62,526 bases of DNA from an uncultured Treponema sp. (GTDB taxonomy: Bacteria; Spirochaetota; Spirochaetia; Treponematales; Treponemataceae), in assembly GCA_934691925.1 (NCBI GenBank), contig CAKUTI010000007.1, positions 1 to 62,526 of the forward strand. Direction: 5' to 3'. Made by a program: the position numbers and the translations under genes. Below the pieces are notes generated by a model, which was not told the DNA's origin, made no database searches, and was given only the letters and a program-made list of their open reading frames with translations. Below, piece by piece: positions 3,678 through 42,917 of this stretch (the first letter of the stretch is position 1; each line of letters starts with the position of its first letter).

Positions 3678-4223
3678 TTACTCGCCGTCAAAATCAATTA
3701 GCGTAGTTACGGGAACTGGAGCGAGCAGTTTTTTAAAGCCTAGCCCCGGCAAGCCGATTACGCCTGCGATTTCAACGACTTTTGCGCCAGCCGCCGCGAA
3801 GAGTTTTTTGCTCGCGTCAAGTGTTCCGCCGGTTGCAATCAGGTCGTCAATCAGGAGAACTTTGTCGTCGCTTTTTACGTCAGCCTTGTGGATTTCAATT
3901 TCGGCGGTTCCGTATTCAAGCGAATAAGACTGCCTGTAGACTTCGCCCGGGAGCTTGCCTTTTTTTCGGATTAAGATTAGAGGAAGAGAAAGACGGTCGG
4001 CGAGCGGAGCTGCAAACAAGAAGCCCCGGCTTTCCGCGCCTGCAATCGCGTTGATTTTGCCTTTTTCCACAAGCGGACGGAATTTTTTCTCGAACGAGTC
4101 AAGGCAGAATTTAAAAGCTTCCGGATTTGTGAAAATGCTCGTGACATCATAAAAAAGGATTCCCGGTTTTGGAAAGTCCGGCACGTGGCGGATTGCCTTG
4201 TCTAAAATTTCATTGTCTTTCAT
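3678..4223 (-). CDS. apt: Adenine phosphoribosyltransferase
   Basis: 181 residues, the normal family length. It has the N-terminal FPKPGILFYDVT block, the SRGFLFAAPLA loop and the PRPP-binding motif VLLIDDLIATGGT near residues 122-134. It converts adenine and PRPP to AMP in purine salvage, in the cytoplasm. It is the first gene of a minus-strand run continuing into the HEPN/MNT locus and the GNAT gene. The ATG at 4223 gives the standard N-terminus. Confidence 0.96.
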   Translation of the reverse strand: MKDNEILDKAIRHVPDFPKPGILFYDVTSIFTNPEAFKFCLDSFEKKFRPLVEKGKINAIAGAESRGFLFAAPLADRLSLPLILIRKKGKLPGEVYRQSYSLEYGTAEIEIHKADVKSDDKVLLIDDLIATGGTLDASKKLFAAAGAKVVEIAGVIGLPGLGFKKLLAPVPVTTLIDFDGE

Positions 4224-23428: not shown

Positions 23429-23842
23429 AATCAACGTTCAACGTGAGTATTATGTTATAGAAATCGCAAAAAACAGTCAATATCTCAAAACAGAAATTTT
23501 GATTATTTTTCAATTTTTTTTGAAATTTTCTCTTTTTATCGCTTTGTTTTTATGATGTTAAGATTTCAGGGATTCCACCTTTCATAAATCAAAATCAGAA
23601 TCCAAAATCATCTTCCTGTTAAAAAAACGCGATTTTTCAAAATCGATAGAGTTCTAAAGCTTTATGGAATATAATTATTGAAGATTTTAATGATTTTTTC
23701 AATTTTCTGAGAAAACGATAAACAATCATTAAAAAATGCGGCTTTAAATGCGATTTTCAGAAAGTAAAATCACACGCGGCAAAATCGGCTTTGCGGAATT
23801 TTTGGCAAAGCAACCGCCGCACAAATCAAAATGGAGAATAAA
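23429..23842. other. 414-bp AT-rich divergent intergenic region
   Basis: It lies between the tRNA cluster and the first SLH gene. A TATAAT at 23670-23675 on the plus strand has no good -35. A G/C-richer stretch with imperfect repeats (GCGGCTTTAAATGCG, GCGGCAAAATCGGC, TTTGCGGAATTTTTGGC) lies at 23738-23815 and may form a leader structure. No ORF is supported. Confidence 0.3.
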
Positions 23843-26170: not shown

Positions 26171-26237
26171 AAATGGAAAAAACGGTCATTTAGCCAAGAA
26201 AAATGGCAAAAACCCAAAATCAAAATTGGAGAATAAA

Positions 26238-28990: not shown

Positions 28991-29246
28991 ACGCACTGAG
29001 TACGAAAGGAGATTCTAGAGCCTTGAATCGTACTGAGTACAAAGCTCATTTTCTGTGCTTTTTGTGAATCGTACTCAGTACGAATCCTGACTTTTCGATT
29101 TTTGTGAATCGTACCCAATACGAATGTCGTTTTTCACGATTTTCTAAAATCGTACTCAATACGAATGTCGTTTTTCACGATTTTCTTGAATCGTACTGAG
29201 TACGAAGCTAGACTTTTTAATTTTTATGAATCGTACTGAATAAAAA
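28991..29246. repeat. Array A: seven palindromes TCGTACTNAGTACGA-like at 40-41 bp spacing
   Basis: Units of about 19 bp, consensus GAATCGTACTSAGTACGAA, start at 29025, 29066, 29106, 29147, 29188 and 29228 (steps 41, 40, 41, 41, 40); a truncated copy is at 28991-29006. The arms are palindromic with a variable centre (CTGAG, CTCAG, CCCAA, CTCAA). The 22-nt spacers are T-rich and differ, except that those of units 4 and 5 share TGTCGTTTTTCACGATTTTCT. The array fills the gap between two convergent genes. It encodes no ORF; 41 is not a multiple of three. Confidence 0.85.
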
Positions 29247-29274
29247 AAGCTCCGCTGGCTTTTCTGCGGAGCTT
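29241..29274 (-). terminator. Terminator of the small lipoprotein gene
   Basis: AAGCTCCGC (29247-29255) pairs with GCGGAGCTT (29266-29274). On the minus strand it is followed by a seven-T run (29248-29242). It lies 24 bp after the lipoprotein stop codon and abuts the last unit of array A. Confidence 0.85.
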
Positions 29275-29297
29275 AAAATTATTCAGTAAAGAAAGAG

Positions 29298-29741
29298 TTA
29301 TTTTTTAATATAAACAGTTTCATCATCATCAGCAGCAACAGCCATTGTATTTCCACTAATTGTAGCTTTCCAAATAAATTCTGAAGCATATTCTGATGGA
29401 ACAGCAACAAGTTCTAATGATTCTGAATCCTCAAGCATGCCTTTTACAACTTTCTTTATTGTTATTACAACGTTGCCCTCTTTTGTTGTATCACCAGTAT
29501 AAGTTCCAGTCGCCAAAGTAATATTTAAACCTTCAGAAGATTCAACAACCTTAAATGTGCTGTCGTCATAGAAATAAACAGTTTCTGTAACAACAGAACC
29601 GTCATCTTCATCCTTTTCTGTGCAGTACCAAGTTGTTACAACGCTTGGATCGTCGTCATCATCGTCATCGCTGCATCCTACAAATGCAAGCGCAAGAACC
29701 ATAGCAGCCAAAACAGCCGAAATTTTAGCAAACTTCCTCAT
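29298..29741 (-). CDS. Small secreted lipoprotein with poly-Asp after the lipidated Cys
   Basis: 147 residues from ATG 29741, chosen over an upstream in-frame start because GGGAG precedes it and MRKFAKISAVLAAMVLAL is a lipoprotein signal. The lipobox is AFVGC with Cys at about residue 23, followed by Ser and seven Asp, which may act as a sorting spacer. The rest is Thr/Val/Asp/Glu-rich beta-strand sequence (WYCTEKDEDD, TGTYTGDTT) resembling lipocalin-like or DUF-type spirochaete lipoproteins; no family is recognised. Its promoter carries a G8 tract. Confidence 0.75.
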   Translation of the reverse strand: MRKFAKISAVLAAMVLALAFVGCSDDDDDDDPSVVTTWYCTEKDEDDGSVVTETVYFYDDSTFKVVESSEGLNITLATGTYTGDTTKEGNVVITIKKVVKGMLEDSESLELVAVPSEYASEFIWKATISGNTMAVAADDDETVYIKK

Positions 29742-29795
29742 AATAAGTTTACTCCCTATAAAATTAGAAATCGCCAATCAAAAATTGGCTAGACA

Positions 29796-29821
29796 AGTGT
29801 ACCCCCCCCGAAAAAAGTCAA
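29796..29821 (-). promoter_or_regulatory. Promoter with G8 homopolymer in the -35/-10 spacer
   Basis: On the minus strand TTGACT (29821-29816) and TACACT (29801-29796) are separated by 14 bp, of which eight are consecutive G (29809-29802). Eleven G would give the optimal 17-bp spacing. The promoter lies 55 bp before the lipoprotein ATG. Confidence 0.6.
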
Positions 29822-29959
29822 GAGGTTTTACAAAATTTTCTAATTTTTCTTTATTCCACTAAGAAACTTCCAACAAAATCCGATTTATCGCCAAGAAAAA
29901 ATGATGTAGTATTGTAGAAACTTAAAATTCACGCTAGCAAAACCAAAAAGGAACAAAAT

Positions 29960-30715
29960 ATGAAATTCATTTCGTGGAACGTGAACGGACTTCGAGCCGT
30001 GATGGGAAAAAACTTTATGGAGGCGTTCGCCTCGCTCGACGCGGACTTTTTCTGCCTGCAAGAGACAAAGCTCCAAGCCGGGCAGATTCAGCTGGAACTC
30101 CCTGGCTATCATCAGTTCTGGAACTACGCCGAAAAAAAAGGATATTCGGGAACTGCGATTTTCGCGAAGCACGAGCCGATTTGTGCAAGCTATGGAATCG
30201 GAACGCCTGAGCACGACACGGAAGGACGCGTAATCACTCTTGAATACGAAAAGTTTTTCCTTGTGACGGTCTACACGCCGAATTCTCAGGACGAGCTTCG
30301 CCGCCTTGAATACAGAATGAAATGGGAAGATGACTTCCGCGCTTATCTTAAAACGCTCGCACAAAAAAAAGGCGTGATTGTCTGCGGAGACATGAACGTT
30401 GCCCACGAGGAAATCGACATCAAGAATCCGAAGACGAACCACCGCAACGCCGGATTCACGGACGAGGAGCGCGGAAAAATGACCGAGCTGCTTTCGTCAG
30501 GATTCACCGACAGCTTCCGCCACTTCTACCCCGACACAGCCGAAGCCTACAGCTGGTGGTCGTACAGATTCCATGCCCGCGAGCGCAACACAGGCTGGCG
30601 AATCGACTATTTTCTCGTTTCCGACAGCATAAAAGACAAGATGGCCGGCGCGAAAATCCACACGGAAATTCTTGGAAGCGACCACTGTCCTGTTGAGCTG
30701 GACATGGAATTTTAA
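29960..30715 (+). CDS. xthA: Exodeoxyribonuclease III
   Basis: 251 residues. All active-site blocks of the AP endonuclease/exonuclease family are present: SWNVNGLRA near residue 5, the metal-binding Glu in LQETKLQ near 35, GDMNVAHEEID near 148, and the terminal SDHCPVELD near 240. It incises abasic sites and degrades 3' ends in base excision repair. AAGGA lies 8 nt before the ATG. It stands alone, followed by an inverted repeat and a terminator. Confidence 0.95.
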   Translation: MKFISWNVNGLRAVMGKNFMEAFASLDADFFCLQETKLQAGQIQLELPGYHQFWNYAEKKGYSGTAIFAKHEPICASYGIGTPEHDTEGRVITLEYEKFFLVTVYTPNSQDELRRLEYRMKWEDDFRAYLKTLAQKKGVIVCGDMNVAHEEIDIKNPKTNHRNAGFTDEERGKMTELLSSGFTDSFRHFYPDTAEAYSWWSYRFHARERNTGWRIDYFLVSDSIKDKMAGAKIHTEILGSDHCPVELDMEF

Positions 30716-30743
30716 TTTTGAACACACCTGTAAGAAAGCGCTT

Positions 30744-30774
30744 TGCGTGCAAAAACATTTTCTTTTTGCACGCA
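30744..30774. repeat. Perfect 12-bp inverted repeat after xthA
   Basis: TGCGTGCAAAAA (30744-30755) pairs with TTTTTGCACGCA (30763-30774). No T tract follows, so it could stabilise the transcript end or be a protein site. Confidence 0.5.
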
Positions 30775-30816
30775 GAACATTTTTCAATACAATCGCTGCA
30801 AAATCCTATTGGCAAG

Positions 30817-30856
30817 CGCTGACTTTTCCATTCGCGTTGAATCAGCGTTTTTTTTT
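30817..30856 (+). terminator. Terminator between xthA and thrA
   Basis: CGCTGA (30817-30822) pairs with TCAGCG (30842-30847), followed by nine T. Because the thrA promoter overlaps and lies beyond it, this ends xthA rather than acting as a thr attenuator. Confidence 0.7.
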
Positions 30857-30865
30857 CATTATAAT
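30837..30865 (+). promoter_or_regulatory. thrA promoter
   Basis: TTGAAT (30837-30842), 17-bp spacer, TATAAT (30860-30865). Transcription would start near 30872 and give a 5' leader of about 26 nt with the ribosome site AGAGG. No room for a leader peptide. Confidence 0.65.
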
Positions 30866-30897
30866 GACCGCATTATTTTAAAAAAAAGAGGAATCTT

Positions 30898-33393
30898 ATG
30901 CTTACTTTGAAATTTGGCGGAACATCGATGGGAAGCGCGCGCAGGATTTTGGATTCTGTGAACATTATGATTGGACGCGCCCAGCAAGACCGTATTTCTG
31001 TTATTGTTTCAGCTGTCGCTGGAGTTTCAAACGCTCTTCAGGCCGCGATTGACGGCTGCGTTACCGGCGGAAATCCAAATTCTTACGTTGAAAGCATAAG
31101 AAAAACCCATTCTGACATCTGCGCGGAAATCGCTTCTTCAATTCAGGGATTTGACGCGAAAGAAGTCTTGAAGAAAATCGAGCTTAACTTTGAGGAGCTT
31201 GAAAAACTTTTGAACGGAGTCGCTTCGTTCGGCGAGTGTCCAGAGTCGATTCACTGCAGAATAATGGGAATGGGCGAGCTTTGCTGCGTTCCAATCGTGA
31301 ATGCGGTTTTGCAGGCGAAAAATCAGAATGTGCTTCTTCTCGATTCAAGAAGATTTATTTTTACAACAGGAAGCCAAAAGGAAGGCGACCCTGACTATGC
31401 GAGAAGCTCCACTGCCCTTGCCCGCTACCGCGACGGAGCTGAGCCTGAGCAGGCGCGGATTCTGCTTTTTCCGGGATTTGTCTGCTCATGGATTAGCCAT
31501 GCCGACGCAGAGCCAAAAATGGGGCTTTTAGGACGAAACGGCTCGGATTTTTCCGCGGCGATTATCGGAGCGGGCTTAGGCTCGTCAAAAGTTGAATTCT
31601 GGACTGACGTTGACGGAATCTACACTGCCGACCCTCGGATTGTCTCAGACGCGATTCTTGTTGAGGATATGACTTATGAGGAGGCGATGGAGCTTTCGTT
31701 CTTCGGCTCGAAAGTTCTTCACCCGAAAACGCTTGCGCCGCTTGCGGCAAAAGGAATTGAGGCATGGAGCTTGAATTCTCACAATCCGTCTGCAAGAGGA
31801 ACTAGAATCGGAAAAGGCCCGTTTGAGTCTGAAAAAGGAATGGGGCCTGTGCGCGGAGTCTCGTGCCTTAAAAATATCTCGCTGATTTCAGTTTCTGGAA
31901 GCGGAATGAAAGGCAAGGCTGGAATGGCCTCGAGAATTTTCGCGACTGTAACACGCGCCGGAGTCTCGGTTCTTTTGATTACTCAGTCTTCATCTGAATA
32001 CACGATTTCTTTCTGCGTAAGGCAGTCGGAATCATTGATTGTAAAGGAAGTTCTCTCTCAGGAATTCTCGCTTGAAATCAGAGACGGCGAAATCAACAAG
32101 ATTAAAGTTCAGGACTACACGGCGATTGTCTCGATTGTAGGCGACAACATGAAGAAAAACTGCGGAGTCGCTGCAAAATTCCTAAACGCTCTTTCTGCGC
32201 GCGGAATCAACATTCTTGCGATTGCGCAGGGCTCAAGCGAACGCTCAATCTCGGTTGTAATCGACGGAGAATTTGGAGACACAGCGGTCAAGGCGACACA
32301 TCTTTTCTTCTTCAACACCGCCCAGCCAATCGAAGTTTTCGCGTTTGGAGCGGGAACAATCGGCGGCGCGCTTATCGACCAGATTCGTGACCAGCACGAA
32401 AAGCTTCTTAAGCAGAATGTTGACATCAAAGTTCTTTGCATCTCTACTGCGGACGGAATGGTTCTTGACGGAAACGGAATCGATTTGAGCTGCTGGCGCG
32501 ACCTTTCAAGAAAGGCGACAGACAAATCGAACGTTGACGAGATTCTGGACTTTGTAAAGGAAGCAAAGCCTCTGAATCCTGTTTTTGTTGACTGCACTGC
32601 GAGCTACGCTTTGCCTGAGCGTTATCTTGACATATTGAATGCGGGAATGAACATTGCGACTCCGAACAAGAGGGCAAATTCAATGGGAATGGACTTCTAT
32701 AAGAAGCTTCGCCAGACTGCGAACAAGAACCACGTGCGTTTCCTTTACGAGACAAACGTGGGCGCGGGACTTCCAATCATCGACACTTTGCAGAATCTCT
32801 TCAAGTCAGGAGACTCGCTCGTCGGCTTCAACGGAATTATGTCCGGCTCTCTTTCATATATTTTTGGAAAGCTCGACGAGGGCAAAAAGTTCAGCGAGGC
32901 TGTAAAAGAGGCGAAAGAGCTTAAATTCACAGAGCCAGACCCGAGAGACGACCTTAAAGGAACTGACGTTGCAAGAAAGGCCTTGATTATCGCGCGTGAG
33001 TCTGGAATGTCGATTGAGCTTTCAGACATCAAGATGAATTCGATTTTCCCGGCGGATTTTTCGATTGAGGGAACTGTCGATGAATTTATGGCGAATCTTC
33101 CGAAAGTTGACGCTTATTTTGACGAGAAAATGGCGCAGCTTAAAAAAGAGGGAAAAGTTCTTAGGATGGGAGCCTCAATCAGAGACGGAAAAGTTTCCGT
33201 TGGAATGCTCGAAGTCGGAAGCGACAATCCGCTTTACGGCGTAAAGGGCGGCGAAAACGCGTTTGTCTTTGAGACTGCGCGCTACACGCCGATTCCGCTT
33301 ACAGTGCGCGGCTACGGAGCCGGCGCTGGAGTTACGGCGGCAGGCGTTTTCGGAGACATTCTCCGCACCGTAAGCTTCAATCCAAGCAAATAA
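30898..33393 (+). CDS. thrA: Bifunctional aspartate kinase/homoserine dehydrogenase I
   Basis: 831 residues, the usual length. Residues 1-290 are aspartate kinase, starting LKFGGTSMGSARRI and containing FGSKVLHPKT near 262. Residues 310-465 hold two ACT repeats (VSVSGSGMKGKAG, VSIVGDNMKK), expected to bind threonine. Residues 475-825 are homoserine dehydrogenase with FAFGAGTIGGALIDQ and GTDVARKALIIARE. It catalyses steps 1 and 3 of the aspartate pathway towards threonine, methionine and isoleucine. GAGG precedes the ATG. Confidence 0.97.
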   Translation: MLTLKFGGTSMGSARRILDSVNIMIGRAQQDRISVIVSAVAGVSNALQAAIDGCVTGGNPNSYVESIRKTHSDICAEIASSIQGFDAKEVLKKIELNFEELEKLLNGVASFGECPESIHCRIMGMGELCCVPIVNAVLQAKNQNVLLLDSRRFIFTTGSQKEGDPDYARSSTALARYRDGAEPEQARILLFPGFVCSWISHADAEPKMGLLGRNGSDFSAAIIGAGLGSSKVEFWTDVDGIYTADPRIVSDAILVEDMTYEEAMELSFFGSKVLHPKTLAPLAAKGIEAWSLNSHNPSARGTRIGKGPFESEKGMGPVRGVSCLKNISLISVSGSGMKGKAGMASRIFATVTRAGVSVLLITQSSSEYTISFCVRQSESLIVKEVLSQEFSLEIRDGEINKIKVQDYTAIVSIVGDNMKKNCGVAAKFLNALSARGINILAIAQGSSERSISVVIDGEFGDTAVKATHLFFFNTAQPIEVFAFGAGTIGGALIDQIRDQHEKLLKQNVDIKVLCISTADGMVLDGNGIDLSCWRDLSRKATDKSNVDEILDFVKEAKPLNPVFVDCTASYALPERYLDILNAGMNIATPNKRANSMGMDFYKKLRQTANKNHVRFLYETNVGAGLPIIDTLQNLFKSGDSLVGFNGIMSGSLSYIFGKLDEGKKFSEAVKEAKELKFTEPDPRDDLKGTDVARKALIIARESGMSIELSDIKMNSIFPADFSIEGTVDEFMANLPKVDAYFDEKMAQLKKEGKVLRMGASIRDGKVSVGMLEVGSDNPLYGVKGGENAFVFETARYTPIPLTVRGYGAGAGVTAAGVFGDILRTVSFNPSK

Positions 33394-33407
33394 GTTTTAA
33401 GGCAACG

Positions 33408-33440
33408 GCCGGCGCGCTTTATTTTTGCGCCGGCTTTTTT
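33408..33440 (+). terminator. thrA terminator
   Basis: GCCGGCGC (33408-33415) pairs with GCGCCGGC (33427-33434), followed by six T, 15 bp after the thrA stop. Confidence 0.9.
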
Positions 33441-33472
33441 GTTTTAAATAGCGGTGTGCAAAACACGTCATT

Positions 33473-33504
33473 CGTCATTGCGAGCCGAAACGACGACGCA
33501 ATCC
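33473..33504. repeat. Interspersed GTCATTGCGAG...GCAATCC element, copy 1
   Basis: CGTCATTGCGAG, a divergent centre and GACGCAATCCA match the widely distributed CGTCATTGCGAG...GAAGCAATCC palindromic element seen between genes in many bacteria. A second copy lies at 33770-33804, so two copies flank array B. Confidence 0.6.
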
Positions 33505-33510
33505 AGCTGC

Positions 33511-33766
33511 CCGGCACGATGCCGAAGAACAGCCGCATTTTTCCTTTTCGGCATGACGCCGAAGAGTCAGGATTCTGCAAAAATAGCGTTCGGCAAAACG
33601 CCGAATGTTGCTTTATAAGATTTTTCTCAATCGGCAAAACGCCGAAAGCTAAAAAATTTCAGAAACAGCAATCGGCACCGCGCCGAATCAAGACTTCTAT
33701 AAAAAACGGCAATCGGCACCGCGCCGAATCACAACTTTCATAAAAAGGCAGTCGGCAAAGTCAGCC
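33511..33766. repeat. Array B: seven palindromes TCGGCANNNCGCCGA-like at 38-42 bp spacing
   Basis: Fifteen-bp cores at about 33511, 33548, 33590, 33631, 33672, 33713 and 33752 (the inner steps are 42, 41, 41, 41). Cores read TCGGC-ATGAC-GCCGA, TCGGC-AAAAC-GCCGA (twice) and TCGGC-ACCGC-GCCGA (twice); the outer copies are degenerate. The inner spacers are 26-27 bp, A/T-rich and all different. As RNA each core could form a 5-bp hairpin. It lies between thrA and the DAHPS gene in a 526-bp gap without genes. Confidence 0.85.
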
Positions 33767-33769
33767 ATT

Positions 33770-33804
33770 CGTCATTGAGAGGAGCAAAGCGACGAAGCAA
33801 TCCA
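33770..33804. repeat. Interspersed GTCATTG...GCAATCC element, copy 2
   Basis: CGTCATTGAGAGGAGCAAAG then CGACGAAGCAATCCA. Same class as the copy at 33473 but with the more typical GGAGC/AAGCGACGAAGC centre. A related fragment GTCATTCCGAACGTGCTCCGG follows at about 33812. Confidence 0.65.
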
Positions 33805-33919
33805 AAAACGTGTCATTCCGAACGTGCTCCGGCATTCCATAAAAAAGACAGCCCAAGCAGCTGGCAAAGCTAAAAATCCTCTATTTCCTAAAAACCTTGC
33901 TTTGCTGTAAAATAAGATT

Positions 33920-35884
33920 ATGGTTATTGTTCTCAAAAATGACGCTTCTGAATCAGAAAAAAAGAATATAAAATCGCTTTTAAAGTCGAAAAGCTTCAAG
34001 ATTAACGAAGTAAAGGGCGAGGAATCCACAATTCTTGCGGCGGTGGGAAAGCTTGCGATGGACACGCGCGAAGTTGAAGTTCTGCCGGGAGTCGAGAAAG
34101 TAGTTCCGATTTCAAAGCCTTACAAAATGGCGAGCCGCGAATTCAAGCCGGAAAACACGATTGTTGAAGTTCCGAACAACCGCGGGCAGATTATCCGCGT
34201 GGGAGGAAGCCGACTTGTCTCAATCGGCGGGCCTTGCGCTGTGGAAAGCCGGGAGCAAATGCTTGAAGCGGCCCAGGCAGTTGCGCAGGCTGGCGCGACA
34301 ATGCTTAGAGGCGGCGCGTACAAGCCGAGAACATCTCCATATTCATTTCAGGGTCTTGGCGAAGAAGGCCTTAAATATTTAAAGGAAGCTGGCGACAAGT
34401 ACGGTCTTCCGGTTGTCACGGAAATCGTGGCGGCGGAATATATTCCGGCAATGGAAAACAACGGCGTTGACGTTTATCAGGTTGGCGCGCGGAATATGCA
34501 GAATTTCGAGCTTTTAAAGCGTTTGGGAAAACTCGGAAAGCCAGTTATTCTAAAACGCGGACTTTGCGCGACAATTGAGGAATGGCTGATGAGCGCGGAA
34601 TATCTTCTTTCTAGCGGAACTGAAAAAGTAATCCTGTGCGAAAGAGGAATCAGAACATATGAGACCGCAACCCGAAACACTCTTGATTTAAGCTCAGTTC
34701 CAGTTTTAAGAAGCCTGACACACCTTCCGATTATCGTTGACCCGAGCCACGCTCTTGGCGTGCGCGACAAAATTCCTCCGATGGCACTTGCAGCGATTGC
34801 GGCAGGCGCAGACGGAATCATTGTTGAAGTTCATTGCCACCCTGAGCAGGCTTTGAGCGATGCGGCGCAGGCACTTTATCCGGCGCAGTTTGACAAAATC
34901 ATGCGCGACATTGAGGCTCTCGCCCCAGTGATTGGAAAGGAAGTTGCCCATATAAGAGCGGCTGAAAATCACGAGTCGCAAGGCGAGCAAACTTCAGAAA
35001 ATCTAAAATCAGAGAATTCGAAGCCTCAAAAGTTCAAATGCGCTTTCTCAGGAAAAAAAGGCGCATACGCAGAGCAGGCGATTTTCAACTATTTTGACGA
35101 CACGGCAGAAGCGGTCGAGACAAATTCTTTCGACGAGATTTTTCAGGAAGTTGTTGACGGCAAAGTTGACTTTGGAATGATTCCAATTGAAAACTCTACG
35201 GCAGGCTCAATATACAACAATTACGACAATCTTACGCGCTACGAGGACATTTCGATTGCGGGCGCGGTAACAATCAGAATTGAGCACAGCCTTCTTGCCC
35301 CGAAAGGCGCGGCTCTTGAAAGCGTTAAAAACGTTTACTCGCATCCGCAGGGGCTTGCCCAATGCTCGAATTTCATAAAAAAGCACGGTCTTCATTGCGT
35401 TGACACGGTTTCAACAGCGACTGGAGCGGAGCTTGTGGCGAAAAAGAACGACATTTCATGCGCGGCGATTGCAAACGCAAGAAACGCAAAAATCTACGGG
35501 CTTCAAATTCTTGCGCAGGGAATTGAAAACAATCCGACAAACTACACAAGATTTGTGGTAATCGCGGCGAACCACGTAAAAGGAATGGAAAAGAAAATTC
35601 GGCAGCTCGGAGAGAAAAAGCCGAACCGCGCGAGCATTTTGTTCACGACAAAAAACGAGGCCGGCGCGCTGTTTGACGCTCTCGGGATTTTCAAGGAAGC
35701 GAATCTTAGCATGAACCGCCTTGAGTCCCGCCCGATTGCAGGAAAGCCGTGGAAATACTGGTTTTACAGCGATGTTGTAATTCCACAGGAAGCAAAAAAT
35801 CCTGTAAAATACGTGGAAGATTTTACGGAAAAGCTAAAGACAGCAGCCGAGGACATCAGGCTTTTGGGAGTTTACGCGGAGTAA
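33920..35884 (+). CDS. DAHP synthase-prephenate dehydratase fusion with ACT domain
   Basis: 654 residues. Residues 1-75 are a ferredoxin-like regulatory domain as in AroF-I enzymes; residues 85-345 are DAHP synthase with GPCAVESREQ, LRGGAYKPRTSPYSFQG, and the DPSHALG and EVHCHPEQALSD metal/substrate blocks. After a short linker, residues 368-545 are prephenate dehydratase (FSGKKGAYAEQA, MIPIENSTAGSI, and TRFVVIA with the catalytic Thr region), and residues 570-654 an ACT domain with the ESRP motif (NRLESRPIAG). One polypeptide thus joins the first shikimate step to the phenylalanine branch. No chorismate mutase domain is visible. No strong ribosome site was found before the ATG. Confidence 0.92.
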   Translation: MVIVLKNDASESEKKNIKSLLKSKSFKINEVKGEESTILAAVGKLAMDTREVEVLPGVEKVVPISKPYKMASREFKPENTIVEVPNNRGQIIRVGGSRLVSIGGPCAVESREQMLEAAQAVAQAGATMLRGGAYKPRTSPYSFQGLGEEGLKYLKEAGDKYGLPVVTEIVAAEYIPAMENNGVDVYQVGARNMQNFELLKRLGKLGKPVILKRGLCATIEEWLMSAEYLLSSGTEKVILCERGIRTYETATRNTLDLSSVPVLRSLTHLPIIVDPSHALGVRDKIPPMALAAIAAGADGIIVEVHCHPEQALSDAAQALYPAQFDKIMRDIEALAPVIGKEVAHIRAAENHESQGEQTSENLKSENSKPQKFKCAFSGKKGAYAEQAIFNYFDDTAEAVETNSFDEIFQEVVDGKVDFGMIPIENSTAGSIYNNYDNLTRYEDISIAGAVTIRIEHSLLAPKGAALESVKNVYSHPQGLAQCSNFIKKHGLHCVDTVSTATGAELVAKKNDISCAAIANARNAKIYGLQILAQGIENNPTNYTRFVVIAANHVKGMEKKIRQLGEKKPNRASILFTTKNEAGALFDALGIFKEANLSMNRLESRPIAGKPWKYWFYSDVVIPQEAKNPVKYVEDFTEKLKTAAEDIRLLGVYAE

Positions 35885-35934
35885 GCAAAAATATTTTGCC
35901 CTTGCTGGCAGATTTTTAGAAAAAGGGGATTTTT

Positions 35935-36426
35935 ATGGAACGTTATGTACTTTCGGTTTTGGTTGAGGACCACGCAGGAGTTTTGAGCCGCGTTTCTGGA
36001 CTTTTCAGCCGGCGCGGATTCAATATCGACTCGCTCACAGTTTGCGAGACGCACAATCCAGGGCAGTCGCGAATGACGATTGTGGTTGTGGGAGACGAGC
36101 ATATTTTGGAGCAGATTATCAAGCAGCTTTCAAAGCTCGTTGAAGTGATTTCGGTTTCGCACAGTCTGCCTTCCGAGACAACTCAGCGCGAAATGGCTTT
36201 GATAAAAGTAAAGGCTTCGGGAACTGACCGTGCTGTAATCATTGAGACCTGCGAGATTTTCCGCGCGCATATTGTCGATGTGGCGCAGAATTCTGTGATT
36301 GTGGAGTCAACAGGAAGCGAGGACAAAATCAAGAGCCTTATCCGCCTGCTCGAGCCTTACGGAATTCTGGAGCTTTGCAAGACAGGACTTTGCTCGATGG
36401 ACCGCGGAGAAAAAGTTCTTAAATAA
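35935..36426 (+). CDS. ilvN: Acetolactate synthase small (regulatory) subunit
   Basis: 163 residues, normal length. The N-terminal ACT domain reads VEDHAGVLSRVSGLFSRRGFNI with the valine-binding NID/SLTV segment, followed by the C-terminal ALS_ss_C domain (ETCEIFRAHIVDV). It binds the catalytic IlvB subunit and confers valine feedback. The large subunit gene is not in the window. It lies 50 bp after the DAHPS-PDT gene on the same strand and is followed by a terminator. Confidence 0.95.
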   Translation: MERYVLSVLVEDHAGVLSRVSGLFSRRGFNIDSLTVCETHNPGQSRMTIVVVGDEHILEQIIKQLSKLVEVISVSHSLPSETTQREMALIKVKASGTDRAVIIETCEIFRAHIVDVAQNSVIVESTGSEDKIKSLIRLLEPYGILELCKTGLCSMDRGEKVLK

Positions 36427-36512
36427 TTTTGGGATTTTAGATTTTTGCGGCTGGCGATTTTTGTGACAGCAAAAACATTGAAAGCCGCGAAAAATATTTT
36501 TTCTAAAGAAAT

Positions 36513-36559
36513 TCGCCGGGCAAGATGAATTGAAACTTCCTGTTTCCGGCGATTTTTTT
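36513..36559 (+). terminator. Terminator after ilvN
   Basis: TCGCCGG (36513-36519) pairs with CCGGCGA (36546-36552), followed by a seven-T run, with a long loop. It lies in the gap between convergent ilvN and the AraC gene. Confidence 0.65.
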
Positions 36560-36587
36560 GTCTTACGAACGTTTAGCGATTTTTTAT

Positions 36588-37421
36588 TTACGGATTTTGA
36601 ATTTTATACTTGTGCGGACTTTTTCCTGTTAGTTTTTTGAACCAGCGGTCAAACTGCGTGATTGAGCCGAATCCGCACTGCAAAGCAACTTCCATAACAG
36701 AGCAGTTTTTCCCAAGAAGCGAGCACGACTTTGCGATTCTCAGCGAATTCACGTACTCAACAAAAGTAAAATCCGTGAACTGCTTAAAGCTGCGGCTCAA
36801 ATGGCTTGCCGTCATATTGAAGCGCGATGCGGTTTGTGAAAGATTCAAGTCCTCAGAAAAATGCGTGTTCACCCACTCGATGATTTCAGAAAAACGCTCG
36901 TTCATTATGAACGCCGGAAGCGAGTCGCTTTTGTTTTCAACGCTGTGGCGGCTAGCAAAAACCAAAATTTCAGTCAAAATGCTCCACGAAAGAGCCTGAT
37001 AATTTTTTTTCTGCCCTGAAAGCTCTTCTTCAAGGCGCAAAAACATCGAATTTATGATTTTCTGGTCTTCCTCATCAAACTGAATCAGAACGTTCATATT
37101 TTTCAGGATATTTCCGACCTCGCTTGAATGGGAATTTTTTGAGAACGGCAAATGGCTTTCATCGTCAAAAAAAATATTGAAAAGCGAGCAGATTTCGCCC
37201 TGAGCGTTTATCGCGCGGTGAAGAACGCCGGGAGCAACAACGATAAACGCGCCTGCCTTCGCCTGAATCGTCTTGTTTCCGTAAAAAAACGCTCGCTCGC
37301 CTGAAACAATATACAAAACTTCCCACCACGGATGAAAATGCCTTCGTGGATTCGTTTTTGCTTTTGATTTTTCAACGAGAGTAAAGCCGAGACTTTCCGA
37401 AGTGAACCTGAAATCGTCCAT
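36588..37421 (-). CDS. AraC family transcriptional regulator with cupin sensor domain
   Basis: 277 residues. Residues 1-130 form an AraC-type cupin (RRHFHPWWEVLYIVSGE, GAFIVVAPGVLHRA), and residues 175-275 two helix-turn-helices with LNLSQTASRFNMTASHLSRSF and the ending FDRWFKKLTGKSPHKYK. Such proteins sense a small ligand through the cupin. It is divergent from the MATE transporter with a 92-bp gap that holds repeated half-sites, so it likely regulates that gene or itself. Confidence 0.93.
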   Translation of the reverse strand: MDDFRFTSESLGFTLVEKSKAKTNPRRHFHPWWEVLYIVSGERAFFYGNKTIQAKAGAFIVVAPGVLHRAINAQGEICSLFNIFFDDESHLPFSKNSHSSEVGNILKNMNVLIQFDEEDQKIINSMFLRLEEELSGQKKNYQALSWSILTEILVFASRHSVENKSDSLPAFIMNERFSEIIEWVNTHFSEDLNLSQTASRFNMTASHLSRSFKQFTDFTFVEYVNSLRIAKSCSLLGKNCSVMEVALQCGFGSITQFDRWFKKLTGKSPHKYKIQNP

Positions 37422-37447
37422 AAAAATGATTCTACATCAAAATCTGC

Positions 37448-37474
37448 ACAAATTCCGCAAAAAACGACAAATTC
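37448..37474. promoter_or_regulatory. Candidate AraC operator: direct repeats ACAAATTC
   Basis: ACAAATTC occurs at 37448-37455 and 37467-37474, 19 bp apart, between the divergent AraC and MATE genes. An inverted AAAATCTG/CAGATTTT pair flanks them. Direct repeats about two helical turns apart suit an AraC dimer; this is inference. Confidence 0.3.
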
Positions 37475-37513
37475 TGAACAGATTTTATCATCAAAATGGA
37501 TTAAATTAATCAT

Positions 37514-38959
37514 ATGGAATCAATTAAATCAAATTCATCTGAACAAAATTCTATCGAGCTTAACAAAAAGGAAAGCAGCCGCCGATTATTGATGATTTCG
37601 GGCAGCCAAATTAAAGCTCTTGTCCTGATTTCGCTTCCGCTTGTTTTTTACGCCTGCATCGGGCAGATTTTCCAGCTGATTGACACGATTATCGCGGCGA
37701 ATATGAGCGCGAATACGGTTTCAACCGTGAGTTTTGTTGCGCAGCTTGAAAAAATGATTGTCGCAATCGCAACGGCTCTTTCCGTTGGCGGCGGAGTTTT
37801 AATCGGGCGGACTTTCGGCTCTGGAGATATGCGGAAATTCCACCACGAAGTGAACACGCTCTTTTTCCTCGGAATTTTCGCTGGTCTTGCAATTCTTATT
37901 CTCACGATTCCTGGAATGCACACAATCCTGAAACTTCTGAAAATGCCGGACGAGCTTTTGCTCCAGGGAACGGTTTATTCTTCGCTTCTGATTGGAAGCT
38001 GCCTTTTTCAGTTTATAAACACGATTTTTTTCGCAATCCAAAAAGCTAAAGGAACGACAAAAATCATAATGTTTGGAAACCTGCTCGTTCTTGCAATCAA
38101 GACTTCGCTGAACATTCTCACTATGAATCTTATCAAGATGAACATAATTTCTTCAGACGCGGGAATCTATTTTTTGCCGGTTGCGACAATTCTCGCGCAT
38201 TTTACGCTCACCGTAATCGCATTCTTCAATATGACGAGCAAGAAAAATCCGTTCAGGCTTGATTTTAAGCTCTGCGAATTCAAGAGTTTTTTCTTAAAGC
38301 CGGTCGCAAATTTGAGCATTCCGGTTTTCTTCGAGAAATTTATTTTCGCGTTCGGAAAAGCGATTGTAAATTCAATGTGCGCCTCGCTCGGCACAACCGT
38401 AATCGGCGCGCTTGGAGTAAGCGACAGAATCTGCGGTCTTTCCACAAACCCGATTTCAGGATTTCAAGAAGCGGAATCGAGCCTTGTCTCAAACAACATC
38501 GGCGCAAAGCAGATTGAGCGGGCAGTCAGCTTTTTTTACCGCACGCTGATTCTCACGATGAGCTACACAATCACATTTTTCTTAATCACAGGAATTTTCA
38601 AAAGCCAAATAATCGGAACTTTCGCAAAAGGAGACGCGAATTTTGCGGCGGAAATCTCGCAAATCTACAACTGGGAGCGTTTCGACACGATTCTTGTCGC
38701 GCTGAACACTTCGGTGATGGGTCTTTTGTACGGATTCGGAAAAACGAAAGTGAGCATGGTCATCAATATCTCGCGGCTTTTCGTCTTTAGAATTCCGTTT
38801 CTGCTGCTTTTCTTGTACGCTCCGGGACTTTACGCGAATGTCGGGCTTGCAGGAATCGGAATGGCGATGTGCATTTCAAACAGCTGCACTGGAATTACCG
38901 CAGGAATTTACGCATTCTGCTTTATTAGAAAGCTAAAGAAATCAGACAAGCAAAATTAA
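37514..38959 (+). CDS. MATE family efflux transporter
   Basis: 481 residues with about twelve predicted membrane segments in two halves. The first half starts LVLISLPLVFYACIGQIFQLIDTIIAA and has GGGVLIGRTFG; the second begins ANLSIPVFFEKFIFAFGKA. It would export drugs or toxic compounds with Na+ or H+ antiport in the inner membrane. The first 35 residues are soluble and Ser/Asn-rich. It is divergent from an AraC regulator. Confidence 0.92.
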   Translation: MESIKSNSSEQNSIELNKKESSRRLLMISGSQIKALVLISLPLVFYACIGQIFQLIDTIIAANMSANTVSTVSFVAQLEKMIVAIATALSVGGGVLIGRTFGSGDMRKFHHEVNTLFFLGIFAGLAILILTIPGMHTILKLLKMPDELLLQGTVYSSLLIGSCLFQFINTIFFAIQKAKGTTKIIMFGNLLVLAIKTSLNILTMNLIKMNIISSDAGIYFLPVATILAHFTLTVIAFFNMTSKKNPFRLDFKLCEFKSFFLKPVANLSIPVFFEKFIFAFGKAIVNSMCASLGTTVIGALGVSDRICGLSTNPISGFQEAESSLVSNNIGAKQIERAVSFFYRTLILTMSYTITFFLITGIFKSQIIGTFAKGDANFAAEISQIYNWERFDTILVALNTSVMGLLYGFGKTKVSMVINISRLFVFRIPFLLLFLYAPGLYANVGLAGIGMAMCISNSCTGITAGIYAFCFIRKLKKSDKQN

Positions 38960-38996
38960 AGTCTCTTAAATCTGAATTGGCAAAACGAGGAAACGT

Positions 38997-39039
38997 GGCT
39001 GGCGAAATGAAGCGCATTTCATTTCGCCAGCCTTTTTTT
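38997..39039 (+). terminator. Terminator after the MATE gene
   Basis: GGCTGGCGAAATGAA (38997-39011) pairs with TTTCATTTCGCCAGCC (39017-39032) around a short loop and runs into seven T. Very stable. Confidence 0.92.
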
Positions 39040-39129
39040 GTGTTCCGCAAGTAAAAATCTTCCTGAATAGAATTTCATAATTTTTTTCGATATAATTTTC
39101 TTATTCTTGAAGAAGAATTGGAGGAAAAA

Positions 39130-39711
39130 ATGAAAGTATTGCTTATAAACGGAAGCCGGCGCGACAACGGCTGCACATTCACAGGACTTTCAATCGTTGC
39201 AAAAGCGTTGAACGAGAACGGAATCGAGTCTGAAATCTTCAATGTTGGAAACCGCGTTCACAACGGACAAATCGAGGACGTTCTAAAAGAAGCCGCAGAA
39301 AAAATCAAAGATTCAGACGGAATTGTTGTCGGCTCGCCAGTTTATTATGCTTCTCCAAGCGGCGAGCTTGTCTATTTTCTCGACAGATTTTTTGGACGCT
39401 GCGTTGACGATTTGCGCTACAAGCCAGCGGCGGCGATTTCCTCTTGCAGACGCGCGGGAAACACAGCTTGCCTTGACGTTCTTCTAAAATATTTTTCCTA
39501 CAACCAGATGCCGATTGTCTCTTCAAGATACTGGAACGAGATTCACGGCTCAAAGCCAGAAGACATCTTGAAAGATGTGGAAGGCGTTCAGATTATGAAA
39601 ATTCTAGGACAAAACATGGCGTGGATTCTAAAGTCAATCGAGGCAGGAAAAAAAGCTGGAATCGCACAGCCGCAGACAGAAGATAACATCTACACGAATT
39701 TTATAAGATAG
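39130..39711 (+). CDS. Flavodoxin-like NADPH-dependent FMN reductase family protein
   Basis: 193 residues from ATG 39130, with GGAGG 6 nt upstream (an in-frame TTG at 39118 is not preferred). The N-terminal LLINGSRRDNGCT is the FMN phosphate loop, and VGSPVYYASPSGELVYFLDR near residues 73-92 is the second flavin-binding block of this family. Probably a cytoplasmic flavin-dependent oxidoreductase; the electron donor and substrate are unknown. The cysteines do not form the iron-sulfur motif of Isf. It precedes aroC by about 30 bp. Confidence 0.85.
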   Translation: MKVLLINGSRRDNGCTFTGLSIVAKALNENGIESEIFNVGNRVHNGQIEDVLKEAAEKIKDSDGIVVGSPVYYASPSGELVYFLDRFFGRCVDDLRYKPAAAISSCRRAGNTACLDVLLKYFSYNQMPIVSSRYWNEIHGSKPEDILKDVEGVQIMKILGQNMAWILKSIEAGKKAGIAQPQTEDNIYTNFIR

Positions 39712-39742
39712 AAATTCTTAATTTTGCATTGTGAATAAAAAA

Positions 39743-40852
39743 ATGGCACAGAACACATTTGGAACAATTTTTAAGGTTACGACTTTTGGAGAAAGCCACG
39801 GCGCAGGCTTGGGATGCATTGTTGACGGAGTTCCGGCGGGAGCGAAAATCGACGCGGAGAAAATTCAGGCGGCACTTGACCGGAGAAAGCCTGGGCAAAG
39901 CTTCGGCGGAAAAAACAACGCGTCCGTAACCTCCCGAAAGGAAGACGACAAAGCGGAAATCTTGAGCGGAATTTTTGAAGGAAAAGCCGAAGGAACTCCA
40001 ATCGGAATCGTAATTCGAAACACAAGCCAGCACTCAAAAGACTATGGAAACCTTGCAAACACTTTTAGACCCGGACACGCTGACTTTTCCTTTTACGCAA
40101 AATACGGCTTCCGCGACTACAGAGGCGGCGGACGCTCCAGCGGAAGAGAAACGGCTGCCCGCGTTGCAGCAGGCGAAATCGCGCGGCAAGTTCTAGAGCA
40201 GCTTTGCGGAATAAAAATCACGGCTTACACAGAACGCGCGGCTGGAATTTCAATTGAAAAAGTAGATTTTTCAGAAATCGAGCAGAATTCGCTTCGTGCG
40301 GCAGACTCAAAAGCAGCCGAGAAAATGAATGAGAAAATCGAGGAAATCCGGGCGAACAAGGACAGCGCAGGCGGAGTTATCGCCTGCAAAATCCAAAACG
40401 TTCCAGCAGGGCTTGGCGAGCCAGTTTTTGGAAAGCTCGACGCGGAGCTTGCAAAAGCGATTGTCGGAATCGGAGCTGTTAAAGGAATTGAATTCGGAGA
40501 CGGATTTGACGCGGCAGATTCAACAGGAAGCGTGAACAATGACAAAATGCGCGCCTCAAAAGACGGAAAATCCGTGGAATTTGAATCGAACCACGCAGGC
40601 GGAATTATAGGCGGAATTTCAAACGGAAACGAGATTTTCTTCCGCGTTGCGGTAAAGCCAGTTCCAAGCATTTTCAGAAGCCAAGAGACGATTTCTGTTG
40701 ACGAGGCAGGAAAATACACAGACTCCGACCTTGTGATTGAAGGCAGGCACGACGTTTGCCTTTGCCCGAGAATCGTGCCGGTAATCGAAGCGATGGCGGC
40801 AATCACATTGCTGGATTTGTATTTGCAGAACAGGGCAAGCAAGCTGCGTTAG
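39743..40852 (+). CDS. aroC: Chorismate synthase
   Basis: 369 residues from ATG 39743, which gives the conserved MAQNTFGTIFKVTTFGESHG start; a GTG at 39731 is in frame. Signature blocks GESHGAGLGCIVDGVPAG, RPGHADFSFYAKYGFRDYRGGGRSSGRETAARVAAG and the DVCLCPRIVPVIEAMAA end are all present (each quoted in part by position: residues 15-32, 110-145 and 340-357). It converts EPSP to chorismate using reduced FMN. The preceding gene encodes a flavoprotein, which may or may not be functionally related. Confidence 0.96.
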   Translation: MAQNTFGTIFKVTTFGESHGAGLGCIVDGVPAGAKIDAEKIQAALDRRKPGQSFGGKNNASVTSRKEDDKAEILSGIFEGKAEGTPIGIVIRNTSQHSKDYGNLANTFRPGHADFSFYAKYGFRDYRGGGRSSGRETAARVAAGEIARQVLEQLCGIKITAYTERAAGISIEKVDFSEIEQNSLRAADSKAAEKMNEKIEEIRANKDSAGGVIACKIQNVPAGLGEPVFGKLDAELAKAIVGIGAVKGIEFGDGFDAADSTGSVNNDKMRASKDGKSVEFESNHAGGIIGGISNGNEIFFRVAVKPVPSIFRSQETISVDEAGKYTDSDLVIEGRHDVCLCPRIVPVIEAMAAITLLDLYLQNRASKLR

Positions 40853-41052
40853 GCAATGAAGCAACGCCGCAGGCGACCGGCCACTGGACTGAAGCGGAGC
40901 GTAAGGAAGCGGCTGGAGCGAAAGCGGAATTGCGGAACTGCCGCCGCCGTTTTTCGCGGGTTGTTCCCCGCGAAAACGCGAACGCCCAAATTTTTCTTTC
41001 CCTATAATTACGTTTTTTATAAATATCAGCAAAAACTCGACTTTTAGATTTT

Positions 41053-42525
41053 CTACAGTTTCCAGCTGACGAGCGCGCCTAAAAGTCTTCCGAAAATGCC
41101 GGATTTTTCCTGCGTGCGGTCGGCGATGAGAGGAACGGTTTCAAGCACTGTGTTTTCCGAAATGTACTGAATCTGGCCGTATTGCTCGCCCTCTTTCACG
41201 CCGCCGTAAATGAATTTTGGAAGCTGAACCGAGATTTTGATTTTTCCGGCTTTCTCTTTCGCGCTTAAAGCCTCTGATTTTTTGACCGTGAGCGAATTTT
41301 CCCATGCTGGAACGAGCTCTACAAATTTTCCTGAATCGTTTTTCGAGCCGATTGCAGGCACAACAAAGCCTTTTTCAAATCCTTCGGCAAGTTTTTCAGA
41401 CGGAAAAAAGTCCGCGAAGTTTGAAAAAGCCCATTCCATCATCTCTTCGCCGTCGTGAACGCGGCCTGCGTTTCCCTGCTTTGAGCCGATTCCGCGACCG
41501 CGCAAAGTAACGGAGATAAACCGCGTTCCGTCGCGCTTTGCAGTGAGCGCAAGATTGTAGCCGCTTTCGTAAATGAATCCAGTCTTGATTCCGTCGCAGC
41601 CTTCGAGAACGCCAAGAAGCGGATTCGTGTTCCGCTGGTAAATTGCAAGAGAGTCGCCTTTTTCCTTTTGCCAGCTCGGAAGATTTTTTTCAAGCGGATA
41701 TTTTATGCTCGTAGCGGAGTGAAATTCCTCGATTCCCTGCGGGTATTTTTTCACATATTCAAAGCAGAATGACGCAAGCTCGCGCGCAGTCGTAAGATTA
41801 TGCTCGTCGTAGCCGCTCGGCTCAACAAAATGAGTTTTTTCAAGACCGAGATTTTTGCAAGTTTCGTTCATCCGCTCTACAAACGAGCTTGTGCTGCCTG
41901 AAACGTAATTCGCCACAGCCAAAGCCGCGTCGTTTCCGGAAGCAACGGCAAGCCCTTTCAAAAGCTCGCGGAGCGTTACAGTCTGCCCCTGCCCCAAAAA
42001 CATAAGCGAAGCGTCTCGCGGCATATTCACAGCCCAGCTTTTCTCGGGAAGCGGCACAACATCATCAAGCGTGAATCTGCCGGAAGCGACATCCTCAAAA
42101 ACGAGATACATAACAAAAAGTTTCGTTAAAGACGCAGGCGGAATCACCTCGTCGGCGTTTTTTTCAAAAAGAATGTTCCCATTGGAAGCGTCAATCAAAA
42201 TCGCAGAGCCGGCCCACACGTCAAGGTTCGCGCCTGTTTCAAAAGAAGGATTTTTCAGCAGCTTTGTCCGCTCGTCAGGATATTTTTGGTCAAGAAGAGA
42301 ATTAAGCGCGGATTTTGATTCCGCTGAAAGCTCCACGAAATTCTGTTTTTTCGTGAAAGACGCGGCGTAAATATTGAAAGAAATCACCGCGGCGAAAACT
42401 AAGACCAGCGCGCCAAGCGCAAAAGCAAGATATTTTTTTGTCTTTAATGATTTTTTATTTTTATCCGCGCCGTTTTTAAGGCTCACAAATTCGCCGGAAA
42501 CGTCATTTTTATCATCGTAAAGCAT
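41053..42525 (-). CDS. D-alanyl-D-alanine carboxypeptidase (PBP5/DacA type)
   Basis: 490 residues with an N-terminal membrane segment (about residues 30-54). The serine penicillin-recognising motifs are present: PASLTKLFV (SxxK) near residue 132, ASGND (SxN) near 195, and GIKTGFIY (KTG) near 318. The C-terminal PBP5_C-like beta domain (about 385-460) and a terminal amphipathic tail follow. It trims pentapeptide side chains of peptidoglycan in the periplasm. The Lys-rich cytoplasmic head is longer than usual. Confidence 0.93.
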   Translation of the reverse strand: MLYDDKNDVSGEFVSLKNGADKNKKSLKTKKYLAFALGALVLVFAAVISFNIYAASFTKKQNFVELSAESKSALNSLLDQKYPDERTKLLKNPSFETGANLDVWAGSAILIDASNGNILFEKNADEVIPPASLTKLFVMYLVFEDVASGRFTLDDVVPLPEKSWAVNMPRDASLMFLGQGQTVTLRELLKGLAVASGNDAALAVANYVSGSTSSFVERMNETCKNLGLEKTHFVEPSGYDEHNLTTARELASFCFEYVKKYPQGIEEFHSATSIKYPLEKNLPSWQKEKGDSLAIYQRNTNPLLGVLEGCDGIKTGFIYESGYNLALTAKRDGTRFISVTLRGRGIGSKQGNAGRVHDGEEMMEWAFSNFADFFPSEKLAEGFEKGFVVPAIGSKNDSGKFVELVPAWENSLTVKKSEALSAKEKAGKIKISVQLPKFIYGGVKEGEQYGQIQYISENTVLETVPLIADRTQEKSGIFGRLLGALVSWKL

Positions 42526-42627
42526 AGGAAGATTTTAGCAGAAAAGGAGAATGTGGGAAAGAAAGGGGACTGAGGGATGAGGGATGAGGAACAAGGAATG
42601 AGGGACACGGAGTGCGAGATGAGGAAC

Positions 42628-42844
42628 AAGGGAAAATCCCGATTGCTTATTTTTAATATTTTGAGATTCGGGACGTTCCCGATTTGCGTTTTTAAAGAAA
42701 AACAGGCTTCGGGAAGCTCCCGATTATCAATTTCTGACAAAAACGGCTTTCGGGATAATCCCGATTGCCTCTTTTTGAGATTTCAAGTTTCGGGACGTTC
42801 CCGATTTGCGATTTTTCCAAAGTTGCATTTCGGGAAAATTCAGG
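42628..42844. repeat. Array C: six palindromes TCGGGANNNTCCCGA at 40-41 bp spacing
   Basis: Fifteen-bp cores at 42628, 42668, 42709, 42750, 42790 and 42830 (steps 40, 41, 41, 40, 40). The arms are constant while the centre varies: CGT, AGC, TAA, CGT; the first and last copies are degenerate. Right flanks are ATTTGCG/ATTGCC-like; spacers of about 26 bp are A/T-rich and differ. It lies upstream of DacA and downstream of the pectin esterase gene, within a 392-bp gene-free gap. A purine-rich stretch with GATGAGG repeats precedes it at 42545-42627. Confidence 0.85.
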
Positions 42845-42917
42845 CGGCTCGTGCTTGGCATATGCCAGCACGAGCCGCAACGCCCTGCTTTTTTATCGCT
42901 TTGGAAGCTGGACTTTT

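Follow-up and report, generated by a model that had tools for sequence, protein, structure and literature searches.

Intergenic chains of short palindromes are known from the neisserial NIME/dRS3 elements, in which the spacers are longer and irregular and for which we know of no partner protein, and the sopC repeats of the F plasmid adjoin the gene of their binding protein. The F-plasmid parS/sopC site is made up of twelve 43-bp repeats holding ten 16-bp inverted repeats, which are bound by ParB/SopB (excerpt of PMC6238139), and in type III toxin-antitoxin systems (ToxIN, CptIN, TenpIN) tandem repeats of 34-36 nt stand just before a small protein gene and co-vary with it (excerpt of PMC5086642). 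We describe here a family of palindrome arrays represented by three arrays, A, B and C, in a 62,526-nt stretch of the genome of an uncultured Treponema sp. (contig CAKUTI010000007.1, positions 1 to 62,526; hereafter the window), whose partner gene elsewhere encodes a protein of the family DUF6261 (PF19775), the candidate reader of the repeats. No description of DUF6261/PF19775 or of such palindrome arrays was found in the open PubMed Central literature at the level of titles and listings. The arrays share with the neisserial elements the intergenic chains of short palindromes and differ from them in their steady spacing and in having a partner protein. With sopC they have in common a tandem layout in which every unit spans about four turns of the helix and contains a single short palindrome, here of 15 bp at mostly 40-42 bp, which is close but not identical. 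They resemble repetitive extragenic palindromic (REP) and REPIN sequences with their RAYT partners in being chromosomal palindromic repeats of which some copies adjoin a partner gene and others lie elsewhere (excerpts of PMC3733652 and PMC3116915), and type III systems in being tandem repeats of similar length that lie directly upstream of a small gene and are matched to its protein.

The unit of an array is a 15-mer in which six base pairs enclose three bases (6-bp arm, 3-nt centre, 6-bp arm), with arms that are specific to each array. Spacers are usually 25-26 bp long, and the pitch is mostly 40 or 41 bp even where the spacers diverge. Steps of 37 bp are found in several arrays, mostly at their ends (the array at L193 opens with two in succession), and because of this clustering the arrays seem to have defined ends. 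In 28 oriented three-unit array pieces the two arms pair in 91.7% of cells, as against 69.3% after shuffling, and 14 of 18 pairs are altered on both sides. Arm positions 2 and 3 of these pieces are C and G nearly throughout and position 6 is mostly A, position 4 is half G-C and half U-A (with one U-G), and position 5 takes all four Watson-Crick pairs.

Arrays were sought by pattern matching and with two covariance models, of which model R2 was applied at E<=1e-4. Among 274 Treponema-family genomes, 27 contain R2 arrays; eight of these 27 had contributed pieces to the model, and T. berlinense (L009, G004) and T. saccharophilum (L011, G005) are among the carriers that have a species name; the best 15 candidates per genome were scored, so that the count for any one genome is an "at least". 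Homology detected by BLAST in the flanks of several arrays led to a common gene, DUF6261. Among ten array-flanking proteins compared with Pfam, three matched DUF6261 (80.8, 85.8 and 73.5 bits against a cut-off of 27), one weakly matched a DinB-like family, one NADase_transloc and one a VCA0040-like family, and four had no match. DUF6261 scores above its Pfam cut-off in 27 of the 274 genomes, 22 of which also carry R2 arrays (hypergeometric P=3.7e-23, uncorrected for kinship). Five genomes have DUF6261 and no R2 match (G162, G042, G041, G063, G055); the DNA before the gene holds a palindrome array in G055 and G041 and a 41-42 bp period in G063 and G162, and no such period in G042. In a sample drawn from the phylum DUF6261 was found in 11 of 392 genomes, all previously found in the family search, and in none of 14 control genomes.

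The adjacency of array and gene was measured at 73 distinct DUF6261 loci, a part of all places where the family matched, 71 of which had at least 200 bp of upstream DNA. The period of that DNA was taken as its best self-similarity among shifts of 20-69. Seven loci had first been met through their array, and a few others had an adjacent array hit beforehand; all were recovered by the DUF6261 profile search or by protein searches as well. Upstream of 64 of the 71 genes the best period is 39-42 bp, with an identity of at least 0.5 in all 64, as compared with 91 of 708 control genes from mostly array-free genomes (three at that identity) and two of 64 regions downstream of DUF6261 (none at that identity). 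Later loci gave a period of 42 bp in 18 of 18, two of the 20 having been set aside for too little upstream DNA. The distance from the end of the array to the DUF6261 start codon is 1-425 bp, with a median of 132 (65 arrays). The genes fall into two subfamilies, subfamily 1 with a period of about 41 bp and subfamily 2, which is multi-copy (at least 13 matches each in G002, G081 and G091), with a period of 42 bp. Watson-Crick pairing exceeds that under three control mappings in 54 of the 65 arrays (27/32 in subfamily 1, 27/33 in subfamily 2); the commonest centre in subfamily 1 is of 3 nt (14/32), and in subfamily 2 centres are various. When these arrays were folded as RNA, the sense strand was stabler in 27 and the antisense strand in 34 (overall p=0.11), the antisense fold being favoured in subfamily 2 (p=0.004).

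The association extends beyond Treponema. Prevotella nigrescens, which belongs to another phylum, carries five 15-bp palindromes (for example TGCCGAGGTTCGGCA) in steps of exactly 41 bp upstream of DUF6261, just before an ATG at L237:3992. We adopted this shorter start because 98-99% identical homologues of the same 271 residues exist; the evidence from Bacteroidota is this one locus. A phage-labelled faecal record (L238), whose host is unknown, shows the repeat TTGATT..AATCAA with a spacing of about 42 bp.

In one subfamily the N-terminal segment of DUF6261 tends to change together with the array. Among the subfamily 2 paralogues read, those of one genome average 70-85% identity, yet their residues 5-12 vary. 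Over 30 loci of this subfamily the array correlates with residues 5-12 after the remainder of the protein is accounted for (partial correlation 0.47, p=0.0005), and windows from residue 13 onward reach at most 0.16. When the proteins are divided into N-terminal classes, the repeated word GAGACCTC occurs in 12/16 arrays of class PL[TS] and 0/34 others, CCAAACGG in 8/9 of class FLG[NG] and 0/41 others, CATTTGAA in 3/3 of class LVN and 0/47 others, and AATTTGGT in 7/9 of class Y[VI]GG and 2/41 others, in counts that pool earlier and later loci, use words and an FLG class picked after looking, and include three rows for which the start had been misplaced, L278 among them being a member of the Y class. 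A prediction written down in advance for the later loci held for the P class in 3/3 (L289 and L290 being perhaps copies of one locus) and for the Y class in 1/1, and the P motif was found in 0/15 non-P loci. A tree of 27 subfamily 1 proteins contains four well-supported groups (L195/L189, L141/L222/L204, L258/L231 and L247/L241) that unite like-armed genes from different genomes.

That the start of DUF6261 tends to change together with the repeat sequence suggests that this protein reads the repeats. We infer DNA binding by a DUF6261 oligomer from the co-change of segment and palindrome, the pitch of about four turns, the lack of a preferred strand and the upstream position. The arrays are thus probably helically phased DNA binding sites of DUF6261 oligomers, whose N-terminus would set their specificity. 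An oligomer would bind each palindrome, the variable stretch of about residues 5-12 would read the arms, and the pitch of 40-42 bp would place all sites on one face of the helix, where neighbouring oligomers could come into contact. The upstream array might control its own DUF6261 gene or nucleate a nucleoprotein patch. The original prediction, made from the letters of the window, had proposed either phased sites for dimeric proteins of diverging specificity or arrays of small RNA hairpins; the evidence favours the former, for which DUF6261 now provides a candidate family, and does not favour the latter, as neither strand is consistently the better folded and arrays occur in all gap orientations. 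For one protein of subfamily 1 an AlphaFold2 model (mean predicted local distance difference test score 92.6, predicted template modelling score 0.69) is all-helical, residues 1 to 9 lying outside the helices, and fold searches with this model returned no significant match.

A broader proposal, which we make tentatively and which may well go too far, is that DUF6261 is a diversified DNA-reading family with a swappable N-terminal code, whose closely similar paralogues, a dozen or more in some genomes, are insulated by their own arrays in Spirochaetota and Bacteroidota alike. If the N-terminal segment is the reader, the paralogues and their arrays would already constitute a natural code of specificity, with about eight residues on one side and a short palindromic site on the other, and a case of paralogues mutually insulated within one cell. 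A family of unknown function in two phyla gains a concrete partner in any event, and a class of intergenic repeats that would otherwise pass as minisatellites gains an explanation.

Several results weigh against DUF6261 as the reader of the arrays. R2 arrays occur without a DUF6261 match in five genomes (G084, G087, G094, G040, G069), and the period is absent at 7/71 DUF6261 loci. In subfamily 2 the rest of the protein given the N-terminus also tracks the array (0.39, p=0.0005), as plain descent would give, and co-variation of gene and array could follow from cis linkage by itself. The N-terminal windows rank behind others in subfamily 1 (partial correlation 0.01-0.21, other windows reaching 0.38 and 0.45), and L187, which has CGGAA arms, falls outside the L141/L222/L204 group. 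Among the later loci the Y motif was present in 4/17 non-Y loci, the S class prediction failed (0/1, or 0/2 with one start corrected), the L class was not encountered, and 13/18 loci fell outside all classes. For the 31 orphan arrays (arrays away from any DUF6261 gene) whose genome has a known DUF6261 array, the best-matching DUF6261-linked array belonged to that genome in only 4 (p=0.14); orphans with ACGTTA, TCGTTA and TCGGGA arms have no clear cognate, and those with TCCTTA a weak one, among the DUF6261 arrays read. The annotated P. nigrescens start, at 3854, is 138 bp earlier and would place the last two units inside the gene, and no array is visible at L239, a more distant phage-labelled faecal record and one of the three non-Treponema records.

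The arrays could instead be mobile or selfish repeats, for whose spread DUF6261 would be needed in the manner of RAYT, the array with its defined ends being the copied unit. This would fit the observations that homology between arrays mostly ends at the array ends (among the BLAST matches listed), that four arrays of one genome have a common unit-by-unit order, that the gap holding array B is short in relatives, and that arrays lie in every kind of gene gap (12 convergent, 16 codirectional, 7 divergent and 4 without one neighbour in 39 rows, where one locus was entered twice and three arrays lie within a long open reading frame (ORF)). We nevertheless consider it unlikely, as orphans rarely match the resident DUF6261 array, three DUF6261 proteins match DUF6261 only in Pfam, and searches of others against PHROGs, NCBIfam and PADLOC gave nothing significant. 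An IS200/IS605-type Y1 transposase (PF01797) is found in just 7 of the 22 genomes with arrays and DUF6261 and was not found in 15; Treponema arrays also differ from REP/RAYT systems in their steady pitch of 40-42 bp, and no GTAG tag was noticed on them, no dedicated scan having been made, the CGTC-like stretches near array B lying outside the array. The sopC comparison fails at other points: DUF6261 is not ParB by sequence, no ParB is among the ten array-flanking proteins, and the Treponema arrays are chromosomal, occur in many copies, have array-specific arms and precede the gene.

Upstream tandem repeats that co-vary with a small protein are the type III toxin-antitoxin layout (excerpt of PMC5086642), and a chain of transcribed hairpins could by analogy bind and hold DUF6261. 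We regard such an RNA system as improbable: the folding strand is inconsistent, with no overall strand preference, a crude hairpin-plus-T scan found array and gene separated by a terminator-like site in 2/57, no toxin family is among the Pfam matches of the three DUF6261 proteins, DUF6261 being another Pfam family and predicted to be all-helical, and orphan arrays with no DUF6261 in the surrounding DNA are common. Array plus DUF6261 behaves like a protein with its cognate repeat array, as do sopC, the REPtron and type III systems, but a tested defining feature of each of these does not apply to it, for type III systems by the crude terminator scan. Neutral minisatellites, with hairpin symmetry arising by replication template switching and spread by unequal crossing-over, would account for arms that are alike within arrays, for loops in both orientations, and for position 5 of the TCGTTA family, where paired changes are no commoner than chance; such an origin would leave the adjacency to one protein family, the steady pitch despite diverged spacers and the N-terminal co-variation unexplained, and is very hard to credit. 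DNA binding by DUF6261 oligomers, as proposed above, is the reading with which we return to the window.

In the 62.5 kb of the window, arrays A, B and C (see the table) are the only chains that pass a scan rule of 15-mers with 5 perfect outer arm pairs, 38-44 bp spacing and at least 4 members, at the places originally predicted. The pattern TCG-N9-CGA occurs 25 times, and its ten pairs 38-43 bp apart all lie within these arrays; a shuffled control (window plus 79 Treponema loci, 1.36 Mb, in 50-base blocks, one shuffle each) gave 0 such arrays. Units of one array differ in their centre and mostly agree in their arms. Rfam finds three tRNAs only in the window at gathering scores, and the arrays match no curated RNA family.

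Comparison with the wider family modifies several details of the original prediction. Its pitch of 40-41 bp describes most steps and misses the opening step in A and in B, and the ends TCG...CGA hold for A, B and C, other arrays starting with ACG, GCG, TCC or ACC. Conservation of symmetry rather than sequence is borne out at positions 4 and 5, which vary mostly as pairs, and not at the constrained positions 2, 3 and 6; spacers described as unlike are not wholly so, a weak spacer consensus being common to oriented arrays with different arms. As to the statement that the arrays contain no ORF, mechanically listed ORFs overlap B (33456-33743) and C (42577-42966). An excess of phased palindromes beyond the window, whose absence was to have counted against the prediction, is evident in the 27 genomes given above.

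Table. Palindrome arrays of the window, their perfect units and neighbouring stretches.
Feature	Position	Strand	Unit starts	Description
Array A	28991..29245	.	28991, 29028, 29069, 29109, 29150, 29191, 29231	seven 15-bp units, first and last degenerate; arms TCGTAC/GTACGA; steps 37,41,40,41,41,40
Perfect unit of array A	29069..29083	.		TCGTACTCAGTACGA
Perfect unit of array A	29191..29205	.		TCGTACTGAGTACGA
Array B	33511..33727	.	33511, 33548, 33590, 33631, 33672, 33713	six 15-bp units; arms TCGGC/GCCGA; steps 37,42,41,41,41
Left of array B	33473..33484	+		CGTCATTGCGAG; resembles start of CGTC-tagged REP, resemblance only
Right of array B	33770..33781	+		CGTCATTGAGAG; stretch similar to CGTCATTGCGAG
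Array C	42628..42844	.	42628, 42668, 42709, 42750, 42790, 42830	six units, four perfect; arms TCGGGA/TCCCGA; steps 40,41,41,40,40

A profile search of six-frame ORFs of at least 60 residues found no DUF6261 in the window, and the same search of the DNA around dispersed arrays found none beyond those already listed. We class A, B and C as orphan members of the DUF6261-linked repeat family. Orphans with TCGTAA, TCCGCA, ACGGAA and most ACGGCA arms resemble known DUF6261 arrays. The nearest array to B is at L140 in T. berlinense and has TCGGCA arms (shared-word score 0.21), and A and C are near no DUF6261 array read (score <=0.15). The three may be live sites of DUF6261 genes outside those read, or relics.

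Array A lies between convergent genes, a plus-strand gene with SLH domains (26226-28979) and a minus-strand ORF without Pfam match (29298-29777); it is directly preceded by two similar-looking tandem ORFs (23831-28979), of which the second is the one with SLH domains. Array C is flanked by two minus-strand genes, one at 41053-42525 for a carboxypeptidase of peptidase family S11 and one at 42918-46745 for a pectinesterase/GDSL protein. Array B occupies a 526-bp gap that separates the aspartokinase-homoserine dehydrogenase gene (30898-33393) from that for DAHP synthase-prephenate dehydratase (33920-35884). Relatives of this locus were gathered by a scan for aspartokinase-homoserine dehydrogenase, which gave 79 Treponema loci; no array lies within 700 bp after this gene at any of the 65 with enough DNA, and where DAHP synthase comes next (26 loci) the gap is 5-219 bp. 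Because the gap in relatives is shorter and array-free, array B looks like a local addition. Within 33440-33840 two CGTCATTG.GAG stretches, similar to CGTC-tagged REPs (excerpt of PMC3733652), bracket array B, as if it had been set into a REP-like element; the 12-mer scan itself gave no excess above chance.

Some arrays elsewhere depart from the common form. Two switch arms midway, L151 at 5520 and L146 at 7969, through a join unit whose left arm comes from one family and whose right arm from the other; these two loci with chimeric arrays, in two genomes (G091, G130), share 741 bp of flank and array. The longest array in its survey (L153, 3372-4124) has 19 units at exactly 41 bp. At L174 (1339-1633) AAA and TTT centres alternate together with 25- and 26-bp spacers, giving an 81-bp double unit, and at L010 (2531-2650) AT-rich palindromes follow at a pitch of about 22 bp, half the usual spacing. 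At L189 (888-5085) the array separates the DUF6261 gene from an MmeI-type restriction-modification gene. Three 17-bp palindromes at L068 (15487-15581) are spaced at exactly 39 bp, or 13 codons, within an apparent coding frame, which we take to resemble a DUF1016-type protein.

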